This document shows positions 46,099 to 63,730 of a stretch of DNA of 64,000 nucleotides, piece by piece (position 1 is the stretch's first letter; every line of letters begins with the position of its first letter). A model generated the notes under the pieces. It made no database searches. It saw only the letters and a program-made list of their open reading frames with translations, and was not told the DNA's origin. A program made the translations under genes and the position numbers. This DNA comes from Bryobacterales bacterium (GTDB taxonomy: Bacteria; Acidobacteriota; Terriglobia; Bryobacterales; Bryobacteraceae): positions 1 to 64,000 of the forward strand of contig PNAJ01000047.1 of assembly GCA_003170295.1 (NCBI GenBank), read 5' to 3'.

Positions 46099-46401
46099 AT
46101 GGATGTCTTGCGTCAGGTATTTTCGGTACTGTTGGTTTTCTCGCTTCTGGGCGCGGTCTTGTGGCTGCTGCGACGGGGCGGAAGAATTTCATTTCGAGGA
46201 TTTGGGAAAGGATTCGCAGGGACGCGGACTCCGGGGCACACCAGGTCGATGGTTGCGGTAGAGCGTATGGCGCTGACGTCCGACCACACGCTGCACATGG
46301 TACGTTTCAACGGACGCGACCTTCTCGTCGCGACGCATCCTCAGGGATGCACGCTGGTCACCGAACAAGTGGCGGAACGCGCGATGGGAGCGGAGGCGTG
46401 A
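46099..46401 (+). CDS. fliO: Flagellar biosynthesis protein FliO
   Basis: One N-terminal membrane helix (VFSVLLVFSLLGAVLWLLRR) followed by a small FliO domain: RSMVAVERMALTSDHTLHMV and RFNGRDLLVATHPQGCTLV. FliO helps FliP assemble. The position between fliN and fliP confirms it. Confidence 0.85.
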   Translation: MDVLRQVFSVLLVFSLLGAVLWLLRRGGRISFRGFGKGFAGTRTPGHTRSMVAVERMALTSDHTLHMVRFNGRDLLVATHPQGCTLVTEQVAERAMGAEA

Positions 46402-47129
46402 GAAGACTGCTGTTGGCATTCGCATTCATCGGCGCGCCGATGATGGCCGCGCAAAGCGATTCCCTGATGGGGATCACGCTGGTGCAAAGTAAGAATGGGA
46501 CGTCGCTCGGCGTGCCTATGCAGATCGTCCTGCTGCTGACCGCTCTGACGATGCTGCCGGCGATCCTGATGTCGGTGACGCCTTTTCTGCGCTCCGTGGT
46601 GGTGCTGCACTTTCTGCGGCAGGCGCTGGGCACGCAGACAACGCCGTCGAACCAGGTGCTGGTCGGCCTCGCGCTGTTCGTTTCGCTGTTGGTGATGCAG
46701 CCGGTGGCCAACGAGGTATATCACAAGAGCTGGGAACCGCTGGAAGCGGGCAAAATCAGTGCCAGCGACGCCTGGGATCTTGCCACACCGCCGATCAAGA
46801 CATTTCTATTGAAGTTCGCTCGCGAAAAAGACATCCGGCTCTTCATCGAGCTTTCCCATTCCCCCGCGCCCGCCAAACCGGAGGATGTACCCATGACCGC
46901 GCTGGTGCCTGCTTACGTGATCAGCGAGCTTAAGGCGTCCTTTCAGATCGGCGCGGTGCTGTTCCTGCCGTTCCTGATCATCGACCTGGTGGTCGCGTCG
47001 ATTACACTGTCGGTCGGCATGGTGCAACTTCCTCCCGTGATGGTATCCGCGCCGTTCAAGATTCTGCTGTTCGTATTGGTGGACGGATGGAATCTGGTGA
47101 TTGGATCTCTGGTGAGGAGCTTCTACTGA
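46398..47129 (+). CDS. fliP: Flagellar export protein FliP
   Basis: After a signal peptide, ALTMLPAILMSVTPFLRSVV and LHFLRQALGTQTTPSNQVLV, then FIELSHSPAPAKPEDVPMTA and LVPAYVISELKASFQIGAVL are diagnostic. FliP forms the core of the export gate with FliQ and FliR. The GTG at 46398 overlaps the fliO stop as GTGA and has GGAG upstream; a longer upstream frame is read-through. 243 residues. Confidence 0.95.
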   Translation: MRRLLLAFAFIGAPMMAAQSDSLMGITLVQSKNGTSLGVPMQIVLLLTALTMLPAILMSVTPFLRSVVVLHFLRQALGTQTTPSNQVLVGLALFVSLLVMQPVANEVYHKSWEPLEAGKISASDAWDLATPPIKTFLLKFAREKDIRLFIELSHSPAPAKPEDVPMTALVPAYVISELKASFQIGAVLFLPFLIIDLVVASITLSVGMVQLPPVMVSAPFKILLFVLVDGWNLVIGSLVRSFY

Positions 47130-47130
47130 T

Positions 47131-47400
47131 ATGACCACCGCTGCGGTTGTCGATTTGATACGAACGGCGTTCGTGACGACGTTCTGGCTGAGCCTGCCGA
47201 TTCTAGCAATGGGATTCGTGATCGGCATCATCATGAGCCTGGCGCAGATCCTCACCTCGATTCAGGATTCGAGTTTTGCCACCGTGCCGAGACTGCTGGC
47301 GTTTCTCGGCGCGTTGCTGCTCGCAATGCCCTGGATGCTCGCGAAGCTGATCGCCTACACCACCACGCTCTTCGGCGATTTCGGGCGATTCGCGCATTAG
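47131..47400 (+). CDS. fliQ: Flagellar export protein FliQ
   Basis: An 89-residue, two-helix protein: TAFVTTFWLSLPILAMGFVI and LAQILTSIQDSSFATVPRLL. Typical size and position between fliP and fliR. Confidence 0.95.
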   Translation: MTTAAVVDLIRTAFVTTFWLSLPILAMGFVIGIIMSLAQILTSIQDSSFATVPRLLAFLGALLLAMPWMLAKLIAYTTTLFGDFGRFAH

Positions 47401-47408
47401 GCATCGCA

Positions 47409-48176
47409 ATGACGGTAGGACTTCCGCTCGGCACAATCTTCGCGTTCCTGCTGGTGCTGTCGCGCGTCGGCGGATTGGTCGCCTTTCTGCCAGTCCCCGC
47501 TTTCCGAAACGCACCCATGATTTTTCGCGCCGTGCTCGCGTTCGTGATGACGATCGCTCTGTTTCCGGTGTGGCCCCATCTTGCGGACGTCATACCTTCG
47601 ATAGGCCAGCTCACGGTGTGGGCGTTTTCAGAAATGGGATTCGGATTAGTGGCGGGGCTTGCCGTCGCGTTTCTTACTGAAGGATTTCAAGTGGGCGCGC
47701 AAGTGTTGGGAATGCCCGCCGGCTTCGGCTACGCGCAGACCATCGATCCGAGCAGCCAGTCCGATTCGAGCGTTCTGCAAGTGCTCACCATGCTAACCAC
47801 TGGACTCCTGTTCTTCTCGCTCGGCCTCGATACGATCGTGATCCGCATTCTCGCCGCCAGCTTTCAAAGGTATCCCGCCGGTTCCTGGTCGCTCTCGGCG
47901 GCGAGCCTCGATAGCATCATCCACTTGGGCGCAGGCATGTTCTCGCTTGGGCTGCGGGTAGCTATGCCGGTGGTTGCGCTGTTACTCCTGATCGACGTCG
48001 CTCTCGCCTTGCTCGGACGTATGCAGCAGCAGCTCCAACTTCTCTCGCTCGCATTTCCGATCAAGATGATGGCCGCGTTGGGCGTTCTTGCCGCGATCGC
48101 TCCGCTTATGCCGAAATTGTTTTCCGGCGCGGCGTCGCATACCATAACCGCGCTATGGCAACTGGCAGGATTCTGA
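47409..48176 (+). CDS. fliR: Flagellar export protein FliR
   Basis: A 255-residue protein with about six helices; SRVGGLVAFLPVPAFRNAPM, FSEMGFGLVAGLAVAFLTEG and GAQVLGMPAGFGYAQTIDPS are family stretches. It completes the FliPQR export gate. flhB begins 1 nt after its stop. Confidence 0.95.
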   Translation: MTVGLPLGTIFAFLLVLSRVGGLVAFLPVPAFRNAPMIFRAVLAFVMTIALFPVWPHLADVIPSIGQLTVWAFSEMGFGLVAGLAVAFLTEGFQVGAQVLGMPAGFGYAQTIDPSSQSDSSVLQVLTMLTTGLLFFSLGLDTIVIRILAASFQRYPAGSWSLSAASLDSIIHLGAGMFSLGLRVAMPVVALLLLIDVALALLGRMQQQLQLLSLAFPIKMMAALGVLAAIAPLMPKLFSGAASHTITALWQLAGF

Positions 48177-48177
48177 A

Positions 48178-49239
48178 GTGGCGGCAGAACAACGATCAGA
48201 AAAACCGACACAGCAACGCCTCAATAAGGCGCGAAAAGAAGGAAATTTCCCAGCCAGCCGCGAGTTTATCTCGGCCGTGCAATTCACCGGATTCGTGACG
48301 CTAAGTGTGACGTTCGGTGGGTCGCTGATGAGGCAAGTGGGAATGCTGATGCGCACCCTGCTGGCCTTCGCATTTACCGGCGAAGTTACCGTAGCGCGCC
48401 TCGTGACGCTGCTGCGATACGAAATCGTTCCCCGTTTTGTGCCGTTGATGCTCGCGGGCTTTGCACTAGTCGTGCTAAGCGTCGTAGCGCAACTGGGGAC
48501 GACGAGGCTTGGCATCTCGCTTGAGAAACTGATGCCGGACATCAAGCGTCTCAACTTTATTAAGAACGTGACATCGCTTCCAGGCCGAAATTTGCCTGTA
48601 TTTCTACAAGCCCTGGCGCTACTTCCCTTGATCGGCTATGTGGTGTACTACGAGGCTTCAGAGAACCTCGATTCTTTTCTTGAGCTGCCGTGGATGGGCG
48701 CGCAACCGGCGATGGCCCGCCTCGGTTCAACGATCGAGACGCTATTATGGCGAGCGGTTGCGCTATTTCTTCTGGTCGGCGTCTGCGATCTGATATGGCA
48801 GAACCATCGTTATACCAAGCAGCTCCGTATGACCAAACACGAGGTCAAACAGGAAGCCAAGGAACAGCAGGGCAGTCCGCACGTCAAGCAGCGCATTCGA
48901 CGCTTGCAGCGCGACATGGCGCGCCGCAGCATGATGAAAGAGATCGAATCCGCGACAGCCGTGATCGTCAATCCGACGCATTACTCCGTGGCGATCAAGT
49001 ACGCGATGGATGGAGCTTCCGCGCCAAAGGTGGTCGCCAAAGGCAAGAACTACCTCGCGGCGCGCATCCGTAAACGCGCCATCGAAGCAGGCGTGCCGAT
49101 TGTCGAGAATCCGCCGCTGGCACGCGCGCTGTACGCATCGGTCGACGTCGGGCAGGAGATCCCGACCCACCTGTATCGCGCGGTTGCGGAGATTCTCGCT
49201 TATATCTATCGCTTGATGAATGGCAAGTTGCCGGGCTAA
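48178..49239 (+). CDS. flhB: Flagellar export switch protein FlhB
   Basis: Starts (GTG) with the signature EQRSEKPTQQRLNKARKEGN, has four membrane helices, and a cytoplasmic domain with the autocleavage motif NPTH (about residue 265) in AVIVNPTHYSVAIKYAMDG and APKVVAKGKNYLAARIRKRA. It changes export specificity together with FliK. The usual partner flhA does not follow; the next gene is convergent with a 4-nt overlap. Confidence 0.96.
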   Translation: MAAEQRSEKPTQQRLNKARKEGNFPASREFISAVQFTGFVTLSVTFGGSLMRQVGMLMRTLLAFAFTGEVTVARLVTLLRYEIVPRFVPLMLAGFALVVLSVVAQLGTTRLGISLEKLMPDIKRLNFIKNVTSLPGRNLPVFLQALALLPLIGYVVYYEASENLDSFLELPWMGAQPAMARLGSTIETLLWRAVALFLLVGVCDLIWQNHRYTKQLRMTKHEVKQEAKEQQGSPHVKQRIRRLQRDMARRSMMKEIESATAVIVNPTHYSVAIKYAMDGASAPKVVAKGKNYLAARIRKRAIEAGVPIVENPPLARALYASVDVGQEIPTHLYRAVAEILAYIYRLMNGKLPG

Positions 49240-53676: not shown

Positions 53677-54300
53677 CTATTTCCTGACATACCCCGCGCT
53701 CGCCGATCGCTTCGCGTTCTGCCGGTGCGCTTCATCCGACAGTGCGTGCACACCGCTCGCATCCACCCAGCGATTGTAAAAATTGAACAGCGCGCAGACT
53801 GTGATCGCATAGTAGATGACTTCGTCGTCCCATCCCACCGCGTAAAGAGGCTGCGTGTCTTCGCTCGAAATCTCCGCAGAACGCGAATTTACCTTATCGA
53901 CAAAACGGAACAGAGCCTTTTCTTTCTCGTTTAGCGCGGAAGTTTCCAAGTCGCGAATCACACTCGCCACGAACTCTTCACCGTGAAGGTCCGTTCCCCG
54001 CTCCTGCTCCAGCAGCACCGCCGCGACCGCGGCGTGAGACTTCAGTCAAAACGGACAATGATTGCGAGCCGACGTAAACGCCGCAATCAGCTCACGCATC
54101 CCCGGAGTCAACGGCGCCGGCTCGCGCAAAATCTCCTGCGTGAATCGAGCCAGATGATTCGTCGCTTCCGGCTTGAACGCGAACATGTGCCAGATTTTCG
54201 AATATTCACCTCCCGCCTGCATCATGCGAATCATGTCGGCGTAAGGACCGGGCTGCGGATTTTCTTCCACAGCGGGCAGAAACATAGGTGGCGTTTTCAT
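53677..54300 (-). CDS. AhpD-like peroxidase selenoprotein (Sec85 at in-frame UGA)
   Basis: One 207-residue AhpD/carboxymuconolactone decarboxylase-type protein is encoded if UGA at 54046-54048 is read as selenocysteine. The sequence around it is ARNHCPF-U-LKSHAAVAAVLL: Cys82, Sec85 and His89 have the exact C-x-x-C-x-x-x-H spacing of the AhpD active site. A stem with a GGUC loop begins 11 nt after the UGA (54019-54034). Reading frame and codon style continue unchanged after it. The start (ATGA overlap) and four upstream genes suggest an operon with FNR-type reductase. AhpD proteins reduce peroxides with thiol partners. The alternative is a nonsense mutation. Confidence 0.85.
54019..54034 (-). 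promoter_or_regulatory. Candidate bacterial SECIS element
   Basis: Downstream of the UGA, CGCCGC pairs exactly with GCGGCG around the tetraloop GGUC. The loop starts at nucleotide 18 after the UGA; in E. coli fdhF the GGUC of the SelB-binding loop starts at nucleotide 19. Sequence and distance both fit a bacterial SECIS. SelB, SelA and tRNA-Sec genes are not in the window. Confidence 0.75.
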
Positions 54301-54512
54301 TTGCGCCGCTTCTTGAAGAATATGTCGCTCGATTTCATGGTCGTCGATACCAGCACCAGGAACACCACTCCCAGCGACACCAGCGTCGCAACCGAGCCGA
54401 TCACCATGTAATCGGACTCCTTCAGCGGCGACGGCATCACCTTCAGCATGATGACCGCAATCACCACGAACACGCACAACGCTGCTGCGCCCAGCATGAG
54501 TCCGCGTTTCAT
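54297..54512 (-). CDS. Small two-helix membrane protein, unknown
   Basis: A 71-residue protein with helices LGAAALCVFVVIAVIMLKVM and MVIGSVATLVSLGVVFLVLV and a basic tail KKRRK. It lies between the FNR-type gene (1-nt TGATG overlap) and the AhpD-like gene (ATGA overlap), so it is part of the same translationally coupled operon. It may anchor a redox partner to the membrane; no family recognised. Confidence 0.65.
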   Translation of the reverse strand: MKRGLMLGAAALCVFVVIAVIMLKVMPSPLKESDYMVIGSVATLVSLGVVFLVLVSTTMKSSDIFFKKRRK

Positions 54513-55201
54513 CAGTCGTACTTCTCAAAGAGGATTTGCTTGCGGTCGAAACCCATATCCTTCAGGATATTCCTCACATCGTCCACCATCAGCTTCAGAC
54601 CGCAGAGAAATACGTCGACGTCGCGGCGCTCCCCGATCGCTTCGCCAAGATGCATCTGCACGTGACCCGACCGTCCGGTCCAGGATGCGGTGGGACGGCT
54701 TAAAGTCGGCAGGAAGCGAAAGTGTGGAAACTGCCGCGCCATCTCCTCAAACTCCGCGCGATACATCAGATGCGATTCGTGGCGTACTCCGAAGATCAAA
54801 GTGAATGCCTGCGATTTCTCATGCAACTGCGCTTTCAGAATCGAGCGGAATGGCGCAATGCCTGTGCCCGTAGCGATCAAAATCGAATCGCGCGGCGGAT
54901 TGCGCAACACGAACATCCCGAGCGGACGACGAATCTCAATCGTGTCGCCCGGCCGCATCTGAAACAACCGCGGCGAGAGCAATCCTTCGTGCACCAAGTT
55001 CAAACATAACTCGAAACGATTGCTTTCAGATGGCGCGGACGCGATGGAATAAGCGCGCGTAATCTTTTTTTCGTTAATGACCTGGTTCATCGAAACGAAC
55101 TGCCCCGGAACAAACGTGAACCTCCCCACCTCCGGCACTTCGAACACGAAATGACGAACCTCCGGCGCGATTTCTGTCGTCTCTATAAGCTTTGCTTCCA
55201 T
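54512..55201 (-). CDS. Ferredoxin/flavodoxin-NADP reductase-like flavoprotein
   Basis: FAD domain with TRAYSIASAPSESNRFELCL (the RxYS motif), FVPGQFVSM, and a nucleotide-binding domain with ILIATGTGIAPFRSIL and a C-terminal DVFLCGLKLMVDDV and FEKYD. At 229 residues it matches the shorter bacterial FNR class. It could supply electrons to the AhpD-like selenoprotein or to siroheme-linked steps, given its operon partners. Confidence 0.85.
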   Translation of the reverse strand: MEAKLIETTEIAPEVRHFVFEVPEVGRFTFVPGQFVSMNQVINEKKITRAYSIASAPSESNRFELCLNLVHEGLLSPRLFQMRPGDTIEIRRPLGMFVLRNPPRDSILIATGTGIAPFRSILKAQLHEKSQAFTLIFGVRHESHLMYRAEFEEMARQFPHFRFLPTLSRPTASWTGRSGHVQMHLGEAIGERRDVDVFLCGLKLMVDDVRNILKDMGFDRKQILFEKYD

Positions 55202-55557
55202 GACCCTTGTGCCCGTTCGAGAACCGCATCGATCATCGCGGGGTGCCCGTCGAGCGGCGGAGTAACCTCGATACTCAGTCCCGGATGCGAGCTCTCGATC
55301 TCCTTTATCAGACGCGGCAAGTCACGCTGAAGATGCAAGCCGAGCGTCAGAAAATACGGAATCACCACCACCGTCTCCACTCCGCTCCCCGACAATGATT
55401 CGACCGCGCCCTGCAAATCCGGACGCCCTCCTTCGAGAAACGCCGTCTCAACAGCCTCGTATCCGCCGCGTTCTCTCAATTGCGCCGTGACCGCGCGGAC
55501 CGCTTCGTTCGCGCTCTCAACACTCGACCCATGCGCGAAAACAACATAGCCGGTCAT
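55183..55557 (-). CDS. CbiX/SirB-like sirohydrochlorin chelatase
   Basis: A small (124-residue) chelatase: YVVFAHGSSVESANEAVRAV carries the His of the HGS motif, and VVVIPYFLTLGLHLQRDLPR supplies the second conserved His. Such CbiX-small proteins insert cobalt or iron into sirohydrochlorin for cobalamin or siroheme. The cobalamin-dependent EutBC in this window and sulfite reduction both need such products. Overlaps FNR by 19 nt. Confidence 0.82.
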   Translation of the reverse strand: MTGYVVFAHGSSVESANEAVRAVTAQLRERGGYEAVETAFLEGGRPDLQGAVESLSGSGVETVVVIPYFLTLGLHLQRDLPRLIKEIESSHPGLSIEVTPPLDGHPAMIDAVLERAQGSWKQSL

Positions 55558-56150
55558 ACTTGCAAACTCGGCGACGGCTCGGGAAAGTACTTCCTCAGGA
55601 AATCGAAAAATGCCCGCCCCCGCAGCCGGCCGTTATTGTGCTGGATCTCGATTCTCTGCAAGAACACTAGCGTCGCCAGCACGTCGACGTCGCGCAGCGT
55701 CATACTCTTCCCCAATTCCTCAATCGATTTTACGAGCCGTTCCTGAATCCCCGCGGCATACGGGTTCTGCGGACGAGTCTCATAAATCAGTCCCGATTGC
55801 AGCGTGCGATACGTGCGGACCAGCGATTCGATCGCCTCCCGAGCGTCCAGATCCACCGCCTTCTCATGCTCCATCGCGCGCGCCAGTGCGAGGCTCAGCG
55901 TCATCACCTCCTGCTCATGCTCCTCCACGAAGCGTTCTTTCAACGAAATATCCTGATTCGGAATATCCTCTCTGGTCAGCGCCGCTGGCCGTTCATGAAC
56001 CCGCGCTTCTTGCAAAAAAGGACAGTCGAGCGGACAATCGATTGTGATTTCGCGTCCGGTACCGCAGCATTGGGGACAGATATCGGCGCTGACGCCGGGG
56101 CAATGCCTGCGCACACGCCGCTTTTCGCAAAGCTTACAAAGGATACTCAC
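55554..56150 (-). CDS. Cys-rich zinc-ribbon protein, unknown function
   Basis: The N-terminal 50 residues hold at least eight cysteines: CKLCEKRRVRRHCPGVSADI, then CPQCCGTGREITIDCPLDCPF. This suggests two zinc sites. The rest (about 60-195) is helical and ends EIQHNNGRLRGRAFFDFLRK. Similar uncharacterised proteins occur in Acidobacteria. It heads the operon that leads to the AhpD-like selenoprotein, with an ATGA overlap to the chelatase gene. Confidence 0.7.
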   Translation of the reverse strand: MSILCKLCEKRRVRRHCPGVSADICPQCCGTGREITIDCPLDCPFLQEARVHERPAALTREDIPNQDISLKERFVEEHEQEVMTLSLALARAMEHEKAVDLDAREAIESLVRTYRTLQSGLIYETRPQNPYAAGIQERLVKSIEELGKSMTLRDVDVLATLVFLQRIEIQHNNGRLRGRAFFDFLRKYFPEPSPSLQV

Positions 56151-61137: not shown

Positions 61138-61869
61138 TTAGTGGGAAACGAGCCCCTTCCAGCAGATCTGCGCGCCGAGCACCACCATCACCAACGACAA
61201 TGCGTAACGCAGTTTTTTCGAAGGCACTCGCGACGCAAGAATCGATCCCGTGATCGCGCCCGGAATGCCGCCGATCAGCAGTTTCACGATCACGGCGCTA
61301 TTGAAGCTACCAAGCGCCGCGTGAATTCCTCCGCCTACCAGCGACAGCGCAAGCCCGAAACACAAATCCGTCCCGACCACTTCAGCCGAGCTCAACGGCG
61401 TCAGGCTCAGCAGTGCCAGTGCGCCCAGCGCTCCAGATCCGGCGGAAGAAAATCCAACTTCAGCGCCGATCGGCAAACCCACCAGCGCCAGCCACTTCGT
61501 CCGATCCGGCCGCAGCCCGCTAGAAAATCGAAATAAATTCAGAAGAGCAACGCTCATGATGGTAAATCCGATGAGCGCCATCATTACACCTGTTCGTATT
61601 CCGTGGAGCAATAGTGATCCCGCGAGCACTCCCGGCAACCCCGTCGCCAGCAGGTACGCTAGCGCGCGCCAGTTCACCTGTCCCCGAGCCCAGTAAAGTG
61701 GCGCGGTGATGAGTTTCACCACCGCACCGAAAATCAGCGAAGTGCCCACGCACTCCGCCGCAGGCAGCCCAAGGAGCAGGATCAACAAGGGAGTTGTGAG
61801 CGAACCCGCGCCAACCCCAGTCAGCGCGATCGCAACGGCGATAACGAATCCGAGAGTTACCTCAATCAT
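61138..61869 (-). CDS. TSUP (TauE/SafE) family anion exporter
   Basis: A 243-residue protein with about seven hydrophobic helices: VIAVAIALTGVGAGSLTTPL, CVGTSLIFGAVVKL, GFSSAGSGALGALALLSLTP and SEVVGTD-like repeats of the TauE domain. The ATGA overlap with cysH places it in the sulfate-assimilation operon, so export of sulfite or another sulfur anion, relieving sulfite toxicity, is the likely role. Confidence 0.85.
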   Translation of the reverse strand: MIEVTLGFVIAVAIALTGVGAGSLTTPLLILLLGLPAAECVGTSLIFGAVVKLITAPLYWARGQVNWRALAYLLATGLPGVLAGSLLLHGIRTGVMMALIGFTIMSVALLNLFRFSSGLRPDRTKWLALVGLPIGAEVGFSSAGSGALGALALLSLTPLSSAEVVGTDLCFGLALSLVGGGIHAALGSFNSAVIVKLLIGGIPGAITGSILASRVPSKKLRYALSLVMVVLGAQICWKGLVSH

Positions 61870-62495
61870 GATTCCGCCTGAATATGAATTCCGCACTCCA
61901 GCTTTTTGCCGTGCCAGCGGCCGGAGCGCGCATTTTCGGGATCGAACGGCAGTTCCGTGCAGGGCGCGCAGCCGATGCTGGTGTAGCCTTTTTCATACAG
62001 CGAGAGCGCCGGAATATCGTGAGCTTGCAGATATATCCAAACCTCGCGATTGGTCCACGCGGCAAGTGGACTGACTTTTTTCAGTTCTTTTCCGCCCGGA
62101 AGTTTGAACGTCTCAATAGTTTGCAGGTTTGCACGCGTCGGAGATTGCTCGCGGCGCAGGCCCGTCAGCCAGGTGTCGTACGGCGCAAGTCCTTCAAACA
62201 GCGGCGTCACTTTGCGGAAGCCGCAGCAGCGGTCGGGGGCCGTTTGATTGAGAATGCCGAACTGCGCTTCCTGTTCGGCGACGCTCTGGTCCGCGCTTAG
62301 ATTCTGAAGGTTGAGATTCCACAGCGCGGCCATTTCATCGCGGTACGCGAGCGTTTCCGGGAAGTGATAACCAGTCTCGAGAAACAACACCGGAACATCG
62401 GGACGGTGCTGAATGACCTGATGCAGCACGACCACGTCTTCCGCTTGAAAACTGCAGGTGATGCACGCGTTCGTAAGATCCAGAGTCTCTATCAC
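61866..62495 (-). CDS. cysH: Adenylylsulfate (APS) reductase
   Basis: Reduces activated sulfate to sulfite with thioredoxin. Two cysteine pairs, Cys90/Cys91 in DRCCGFRKVTPL and Cys176/Cys179 in GCAPCTELPF, mark a [4Fe-4S] APS reductase rather than the cluster-free PAPS enzyme of E. coli. The catalytic cysteine is Cys201 in LECGIH. The start is GTG, overlapping cysN as GTGA. No cysC kinase domain is seen, in line with direct use of APS. Confidence 0.92.
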   Translation of the reverse strand: MIETLDLTNACITCSFQAEDVVVLHQVIQHRPDVPVLFLETGYHFPETLAYRDEMAALWNLNLQNLSADQSVAEQEAQFGILNQTAPDRCCGFRKVTPLFEGLAPYDTWLTGLRREQSPTRANLQTIETFKLPGGKELKKVSPLAAWTNREVWIYLQAHDIPALSLYEKGYTSIGCAPCTELPFDPENARSGRWHGKKLECGIHIQAES

Positions 62496-63730
62496 TTGAT
62501 CATACCAGCGGCAGCGGTCGCATTGGTCTCACGGTCGATCAGAATGAAACTGCCCGTCGTACGATTCGATTTATACGGGTCAAAAAACAACGGCTGCGCA
62601 AGCGCGATCCGCACTGCGCCGATGTCGTTCATTTTGAGTTCAGTATCGTTTGCAACTCGCGCGCGAATCGTCTGCGTGGTGTGTTTCAGCAGGTACTCTT
62701 TCGAAGGATCGAGAGGAGTTCCGTCGAACCACACGACCGTCGCTTCGATCGAGCGAGCCGTTTGCGGTTCGACGCCTGCGGCCAGCATGTCGCCTCGGCC
62801 GATATCGATCTCGTCTTCGAGCGTAAGTGTCACGGAAAGAGGAGCATGCGCAATTTCCAGATCGCCGTCATAAGTAACAATCCGCGTCACTCGGCTCTTT
62901 CGGCCGGAAGGTAGAGCCAAAATCTCGTCCCCGGGGCGAATCACACCCGACGCGATTTGGCCGGCATAGCCCCGAAAAGTCTGGTCCGGACGAACGGCGC
63001 GCTGCACGGGCATCCGGAATGCGGCGCTGATGGGTTTTTCTACCTCAATGCTTTCCAAATGTTCTAAAAGCGGCGCACCCGCGAACCACGGCATATTGGC
63101 GCTTCTCTCAACGACGTTATCGCCTAAAAGCGCGCTCATGGGCAAAAAGTACGGTTCTACGACGCCTAACGAGTCTAAAAAGGGCTTAAAGTGCTCGAAA
63201 ACGTCGTGGAAAACGTCTTGTTTGACCTTAATTAGATCCATTTTATTGACTGCGATTACAAAGTGGCGGATGCCCAAAAGCGCCGCAATCGAGGCATGCC
63301 GCCTGGATTGGTCCGTCAAACCACGCGTGGCATCTACTAAGATGATGGCCAGGTCCGCGGTCGATGCGCCGGTTGCCATATTGCGCGTGTACTGCACATG
63401 GCCGGGCGTATCGGCGAGAATGAATTTGCGTTTCGGCGTCGCGAAGTAGCGATAAGCAACGTCGATGGTGATGCCTTGCTCGCGCTCCGCGCGCAGACCA
63501 TCGGTAAGCAGCGCGAAATCGATGACGCCGTCGGCGCGGCGTACGGATTTCAGTTGATCTTCGTAGGCTCCGCGCGCATCGTGCAACAGGCGGCCGATGA
63601 GAGTGCTCTTGCCATCATCAACGCTTCCTGCAGTGGCAAGGCGCAACAGATCCTTCGATAGCTCCCCGGCGAGGAATGCCTCAATATCGAATTGCTCGTC
63701 TTTGCTTAGTTGCTCCGGCGGTGCGATCAC
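62492..63730 (-). CDS. cysN: Sulfate adenylyltransferase GTPase subunit
   Basis: GTPase of the EF-Tu family that drives APS formation by CysD. The P-loop is GSVDDGKS (35-42), with ADTPGHVQYTRNMATGASTA as the G3 region and VNKMDLIKV as G4. The C-terminal beta domains end GSFILIDRETN. At 412 residues there is no fused CysC kinase. GTG start; cysD ends 1 nt upstream. Confidence 0.95.
   Translation of the reverse strand: MIAPPEQLSKDEQFDIEAFLAGELSKDLLRLATAGSVDDGKSTLIGRLLHDARGAYEDQLKSVRRADGVIDFALLTDGLRAEREQGITIDVAYRYFATPKRKFILADTPGHVQYTRNMATGASTADLAIILVDATRGLTDQSRRHASIAALLGIRHFVIAVNKMDLIKVKQDVFHDVFEHFKPFLDSLGVVEPYFLPMSALLGDNVVERSANMPWFAGAPLLEHLESIEVEKPISAAFRMPVQRAVRPDQTFRGYAGQIASGVIRPGDEILALPSGRKSRVTRIVTYDGDLEIAHAPLSVTLTLEDEIDIGRGDMLAAGVEPQTARSIEATVVWFDGTPLDPSKEYLLKHTTQTIRARVANDTELKMNDIGAVRIALAQPLFFDPYKSNRTTGSFILIDRETNATAAAGMIK

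Follow-up and report, generated by a model that had tools for sequence, protein, structure and literature searches.

A predicted AhpD-like selenoprotein with a covarying SECIS hairpin in Bryobacterales-type Acidobacteriota

The original prediction for the locus described here held that AhpD-like selenoproteins were already known from environmental sequences, and the literature bears this out: as far as the accessible text of the papers cited in this study goes, AhpD-like COG2128 proteins with a CxxU motif are represented by 27 sequences in the Sargasso Sea data (PMC1088965) and by 299 sequences in the GOS data (PMC2398784), and a 2026 review lists CxxU selenoproteins under the family model TIGR01926 (PMC13188914). 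The same review gives a consensus for the bacterial selenocysteine insertion element (bSECIS), comprising a loop of 3–9 nt, an upper stem of 4–16 bp, a G in the first two loop positions, a spacing of 16–37 nt and an MFE of ≤ −7.5, and its published loop pattern includes a pair between two loop bases. In the fdhF SECIS of Escherichia coli, a bulged U17 binds SelB together with G23 (PMC8659212). On the protein side, AhpD has been described as an adaptor for AhpC, with a relay in Mycobacterium tuberculosis AhpD made up of Glu118, Cys130, Cys133 and His137 and with His132 or Tyr50 as the third relay residue in the AhpDs described (PMC3141380). For the phylum concerned here, the accessible parts of Zhang 2006 report four selenoproteins from three families in Acidobacteria, and those of deep-Sep report three selenoprotein genes in one Acidobacteriota genome, in neither case by name; the idea that this might be the first selenoprotein reported in Acidobacteria was therefore dropped.

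An AhpD-like frame with a single in-frame UGA

The DNA analysed, referred to below as the window, is a stretch of 64,000 nt from a Bryobacterales bacterium. On its minus strand, two adjacent frames join through one in-frame UGA into a protein of 207 residues, as had been claimed (Table 1). The TGA at codon 85 is the sole interruption of the frame, and translation gives the motif E70-x11-C82-P-F-U85-L-K-S-H89, with C82, U85 and H89 exactly where the original prediction had placed them and the UGA at the second Cys of the AhpD motif. The hairpin proposed immediately downstream is likewise present: bases 12–17 after the UGA pair with bases 22–27 in a 6-bp stem, and the GGTC loop occupies bases 18–21. 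The minus strand of the window has two perfect 6-bp stems with a GGTC loop (54034 and 3668) and the plus strand has none; one of the two has a TGA 11 nt before the stem. A joined TGA is weak evidence in itself: counting both strands, the window contains 48 TGAs that are flanked on both sides by more than 70 open codons. The fold of 48 nt as a single sequence is unremarkable (z = −0.33; 62 of 200 shuffles as good), and that of the 19-nt hairpin core is unusual (z = −2.86). The joined TGA and the 48-nt fold being insufficient on their own, it is conservation across homologues that lifts the UGA above chance. Gene callers that take UGA as a stop only would annotate a pair of broken genes, both in the window and in many relatives.

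Table 1 Features of the locus in window coordinates
Feature	Coordinates	Strand	Description	Basis
Predicted AhpD-like selenoprotein gene	53677..54300	(-)	207 codons + stop, ATG at 54298-54300	translation with TGA=U, TIGR01926 score, orthologues
In-frame UGA, predicted to be read as selenocysteine	54046..54048	(-)	residue 85; motif C82-P-F-U85-x3-H89	coordinates; TGA at the same codon in family hits and GTDB loci
SECIS hairpin	54019..54034	(-)	16 nt, 6-bp stem + 4-nt loop (GGUC at 54025-54028)	covariation, synonymous-site constraint, RNAalifold consensus
Small membrane-like protein	54297..54512	(-)	71 residues; stop overlaps AhpD start (ATGA)	hydrophobic sequence; no Pfam match
FAD/NAD(P)-binding oxidoreductase	54512..55201	(-)	one-base overlap with small protein	PF00970 and PF00175

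The joined protein scores 87.8 bits against TIGR01926 (NCBIfam), above the curated cut-off of 81.8, and thus belongs to that family; against NF041238, AhpD_rel_CFYUT (seleno)proteins, it scores 38.1 bits, below the cut-off of 175. All 52 members of a homologue alignment (A2) match TIGR01926 at E ≤ 1e-3, the cut-off score being given for the first only. The structure model of the protein (pLDDT 95.2) finds its best PDB match in Deinococcus radiodurans AhpD (6k40), followed by peroxidase-related proteins, and the solved structures closest to it carry the names AhpD, peroxidase-related or antioxidant defence protein. The 66 GTDB-based sequences of A3 all have E70, C82, F84, C/U85 and H89, and E70, C82, C/U85 and H89 are likewise invariant in the 52 sequences of A2, whose rows were preselected for the motif, so that C82, C85 and H89 are invariant there by construction. 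Outside the alignments, the relay departs from this pattern in two T-P-F-C copies of one genome (L173 and L175, G136), which have Thr at 82 and have thereby lost the first active-site Cys while keeping the second, and in a degraded copy (L185, G124), in which Cys82 is replaced by Tyr and a second TGA is present. Another copy (L177, G219) is broken, being split around an N gap.

Conservation of the UGA and of the hairpin in homologues

Within the same family, 121 of 237 genomes contain a match at E ≤ 1e-20. Among the 142 matches listed, 115 have exactly one TGA and 27 have no stop; 120 further loci were fetched and 124 read in all, which cover 129 of the 142, one genome with one TGA (G175) and 12 stop-free places being left unfetched. 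The second motif position in the 143 hits from the loci read, a set that counts some genomes repeatedly, is TGA in 113 (that of the window included), TGC in 22, TGT in 3 and unassigned in 5, among them L173, L175 and L185; because of the 12 unfetched stop-free places, the count of 113/143 leans towards TGA. All 113 readable one-TGA motifs, that of the window included, place the TGA at codon 85, and no other stop lies inside these hits. Conservation continues beyond the UGA as far as the end of the protein, where G203 and Y204 are invariant. A search for homologues with Cys at position 85 had been proposed as a check, and 25 of the 143 hits carry Cys there, next to the 113 with TGA; eight of them exceed 150 bits, the other 17 being paralogues at 50–80 bits. 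Codons other than TGA at this position encode Cys only, in these 25 hits and in the two T-P-F-C copies, and Trp was seen in none.

The GTDB collection, whose loci overlap heavily with the genomes of the family search, contains 246 stretches that encode a relative, and the best 80 of the 246 have TGA in 79 cases and TGC in one. These relatives are labelled mostly Bryobacterales, Bryobacteraceae, Solibacteraceae, Terriglobia or Acidobacteria. Four loci with TGA carry other labels (Proteobacteria L194, Chthoniobacterales L240, Cyanobacteria L257 and Gemmatimonas L263), which may reflect binning errors or transfer. An even draw of 396 genomes from the phylum gave 14 matches at E ≤ 1e-40, with one TGA in 10 (that of the window included) and none in 4, the position of the TGA being read for the copy of the window only.

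At seven loci (L019, L134, L140, L162, L165, L166 and L169), more distant Cys-type AhpD paralogues share the locus of the main gene, some directly adjoining it, and a genome of the same genus as the window (G001) encodes, besides its orthologue, a distinct AhpD-family protein whose motif is C-E-Y-U (L028:1501-1938), likely another selenoprotein.

A tree of 119 rows (109 Sec and 10 Cys; root not fixed) requires at least four changes between the Sec and Cys states. Rows with Cys are placed within or adjoining Sec clades, one join involving long branches, and the pattern fits repeated replacement of Sec by Cys on this unrooted tree. In the genus of the window, the orthologue is distributed patchily, in 4 of 23 genomes (three TGA, one Cys), and the copy of the window falls together with the Cys copy of G005 and with genes from other genera, and apart from that of G001, a member of its own genus; grouping and patchiness together suggest loss and transfer.

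For analysis of the hairpin, 111 distinct sequences of the 113 were aligned (A1), L177 and one identical row being dropped. With bases 18 and 21 taken as a pair, 97.9% of the cells are paired, against a shuffled mean of 93.7%, and 50 cells are changed on both sides, against 17.3 in shuffles (0 of 500 as high), with double-sided changes at three pairs. Two of the five shuffle measures were undecisive, namely the number of pairs with double changes (56 of 500 as high) and of further pair types (62 of 500), and in versions of the hairpin slid along the alignment 27–82% of the cells pair. The loop (n = 112) reads GGTC in 65 sequences, AGTT in 36, AGGT in 4, CGGT in 4 and three others once each, around a G19 that is invariant in 113 of 113; bases 18 and 21 (n = 111) are G-C in 65, A-U in 40, G-U in one and unpaired in 5. 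Mapped on the tree, the two sides of the 18-21 pair underwent 15 and 14 changes, and in independent contrasts on well-supported branches they changed together in 6 cases, oppositely in none and remained unchanged in one (p = 0.03). For the covarying pairs 15-24 and 12-27, the events are too few for this contrast test, which used the 104, 107 and 102 rows that remained once those with other letters at the pair in question had been removed.

Constraint is also visible at synonymous sites. The third-position entropy of the four-fold codons 90–94 averages 0.70 bits compared with 1.50 outside codons 86–96 (105 sequences; p = 2e-6), codons 90, 93 and 94 lying below every other column and codons 91 and 92 inside the range of the others, which indicates that the constraint acts on RNA. 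The hairpin agrees with the bSECIS consensus (loop of 4 nt, 6 bp, G18/G19, 17 nt spacing, −12.4 kcal/mol), and an Rfam scan of the window at the gathering threshold returned no match. A comparable hairpin is absent from the Cys form of G005 (−1.8 kcal/mol).

Selenocysteine machinery and gene neighbourhood

The genome of the window encodes a tRNA-Sec (64.9 bits; called tRNA-SeC by ARAGORN), selA (461.9 bits) and selD (362.5 bits). A search for the sel genes had been part of the original prediction, which named the absence of selB and tRNA-Sec as evidence against it; formally half of this was found, tRNA-Sec being present and selB not found in the assembly, which is 82.86% complete. The best matches to the selB model in this genome are a CysN-like protein (window 62492-63730), followed by IF-2-like, CysN-CysC fusion-like and LepA-like proteins (names by sequence). 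The additional absence of EF-Tu was considered as an argument on the missing selB and dropped, as an EF-Tu-like match (E about 1e-49 to 1e-58) is absent also from 12 others of the 23 genomes of the genus.

Across the 237 family genomes, 186 have selB and 187 have selA over cut-off. The 110 genomes with the Sec form (own included) comprise 97 with selB and 101 with selA at thresholds of E 1e-65 and 1e-60, respectively, at which a gene cut short by a contig end may be scored as absent; a selB match is thus missing in 13 of them. At least one of the two genes was found in 109 of these 110 genomes, the exception being G163 (85% complete), compared with 99 of the 127 others (Fisher p = 1e-7); in this table the Sec status of G175 was taken from its TGA count alone, and G124 is represented by its degraded copy. 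A natural control is provided by G005, which belongs to the same genus, is 97% complete and has neither selA nor selB at threshold: its Cys form, in a relative where the two genes were not found, offers a natural comparison for the Sec form.

The selenoprotein gene closes a tightly packed run in which the oxidoreductase, the 71-residue protein and the selenoprotein follow each other with overlapping stops and starts. The oxidoreductase is a possible electron donor, in a context that is not conserved. The operon context of the selenoprotein gene had been singled out as undescribed, which is not borne out in the sense of a system: the arrangement recurs in none of the other 120 loci examined (flanks 1.5 kb in some), the 71-residue protein was not seen beside orthologues, and the oxidoreductase was matched at its own locus only among 121 loci. 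When 13 neighbours from the window were searched in the 121 loci, hits beyond the own locus were scattered (SDR 4, quinone-reductase-like 3, CysN 1). These loci, with flanks of 1.5 kb in some, therefore give no support to a dedicated oxidoreductase–membrane protein–AhpD system or conserved operon, and the neighbourhood looks incidental. In 24 of the 121 loci a TonB/Oar-like gene lies directly upstream in the same orientation, and in 26 an MFS-like transporter gene follows directly downstream; these are the commonest neighbours (names by sequence).

Elsewhere in the window, a TauE-like exporter, a PAPS-reductase-domain protein (CysH-like) and a CysN-like GTPase lie in a row at 61138-63730 (CysH and CysN names by sequence), probably an assimilatory sulfate cluster. 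Positions 46161-49239 carry flagellar-export-like genes, which we take to resemble fliP, fliQ, fliR and flhB, and positions 55554-56150 encode a protein of 198 residues that is rich in Cys at its N-terminus and matches no Pfam model at E 0.001.

Proposed mechanism and comparison with known systems

The exchange of TGA and Cys at one codon, the covariation of the RNA and the presence of Sec machinery support the predicted AhpD-like selenoprotein with a downstream bacterial SECIS. A dead gene, in which a Cys codon (TGC/TGT) was mutated or misread as TGA, would take a single point change from TGC, and two degraded copies exist elsewhere (L185, L177); set against this, 113 of the 143 hits have TGA at this codon and no other stop, the sequence beyond the UGA is conserved as far as the invariant G203 and Y204, and the hairpin covaries, so that we give a pseudogene or sequencing error practically no credence. 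Very improbable, too, is a UGA that acts as a true stop ahead of a separately started 3′ half, or that is read as Trp or by plain read-through. The lack of selB in an assembly 83% complete would suit such an explanation, whereas the replacement of TGA by Cys (25 of 143 hits and the two T-P-F-C copies) and never by Trp, the coincidence of the UGA with an active-site residue, the presence of tRNA-Sec, selA and selD, and the covarying RNA hairpin after the UGA all argue against it.

A selenoprotein whose main substrate is not peroxide is a much more serious contender, although we lean against it. It could serve a separate peroxiredoxin as a thiol-disulfide adaptor, or be some other redox enzyme of the AhpD fold, for example a dehalogenase: the fold is common to proteins of the carboxymuconolactone decarboxylase family and to the Bmp8 debrominase (3lvy, 6ohj), AhpD itself is described as an AhpC adaptor, and where the accessible account of AhpDs has His132 or Tyr50 as third relay residue (PMC3141380), the protein here has the invariant Phe84. 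Retention of the relay E70, C82, U85 and H89, and the naming of the nearest structures as AhpD, peroxidase-related or antioxidant defence proteins, speak for peroxide. As a whole, the explanation that we consider very probably correct is a selenoprotein of the AhpD-like, peroxidase-related family TIGR01926, in which Sec85 would be inserted through the SECIS and SelB and would attack peroxide.

In the mechanism that we propose, tRNA-Sec would be charged through SelA with selenophosphate from SelD, and SelB would deliver it to the UGA at codon 85 upon binding the hairpin, whose first base is the 12th after that codon. The tip of the hairpin would display G19 and the next base (mostly U20), closed by the 18-21 pair. 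The protein would adopt the all-helical AhpD fold, with E70, C82, Sec85 and H89 as the known proton-relay site. Sec85 may then attack the peroxide, with C82 as the resolving residue, a scheme that follows the AhpD literature; the catalytic cycle would be completed by a thiol or dithiol as reductant. Tentatively, and with almost as much readiness as doubt, we extend this to an AhpD selenoprotein found throughout Bryobacterales, in which the SECIS tip is a covarying pair that closes a two-base display headed by the invariant G, one SelB reads both GGUC and AGUU, and Phe replaces the third relay residue, for which Sec may compensate. One genome (G037) has one GGUC copy, one AGUU copy and a single selB match. 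With their invariant G and covarying loop pair, the 111 distinct natural hairpins form a test bed for the reading by SelB outside E. coli.

The hairpin was originally called fdhF-like, which is apt in part. The E. coli element has a GGUC loop too, at nearly the same distance from its UGA, the loop in the window lying about 1 nt closer. Loop and place are thus close, but the fdhF element as described has the bulged U17 (PMC8659212), which has no counterpart in the uninterrupted stem of the window. The relay of M. tuberculosis AhpD has the same spacing as E70, C82, U85 and H89; however, that protein is a weak fold match (Foldseek E 0.08 or worse), its accessible description puts the helix pair elsewhere in the chain, and Phe84 occupies the place of its His132/Tyr50 (PMC3141380). 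D. radiodurans AhpD 6k40 shares the fold (Foldseek E 5e-9, with 26% identity) and matches in sequence over residues 58-184; it has Cys where the protein of the window is predicted to have Sec.

A literature search of partial coverage found no description of this acidobacterial AhpD-like gene. By their accessible descriptions, the published AhpD-like CxxU selenoproteins combine an AhpD-type domain with Sec in place of the second Cys of CxxC and a downstream bacterial SECIS, as here; the Sargasso and GOS sets are marine, whereas the relatives of the window are mostly labelled Acidobacteriota and have one dominant hairpin. With CxxU selenoproteins of TIGR01926 and COG2128 already in print, the kind is known and the gene is a further member of it; as far as the searches go, what it adds is the spread among Bryobacterales-type Acidobacteriota and the covarying SECIS loop.
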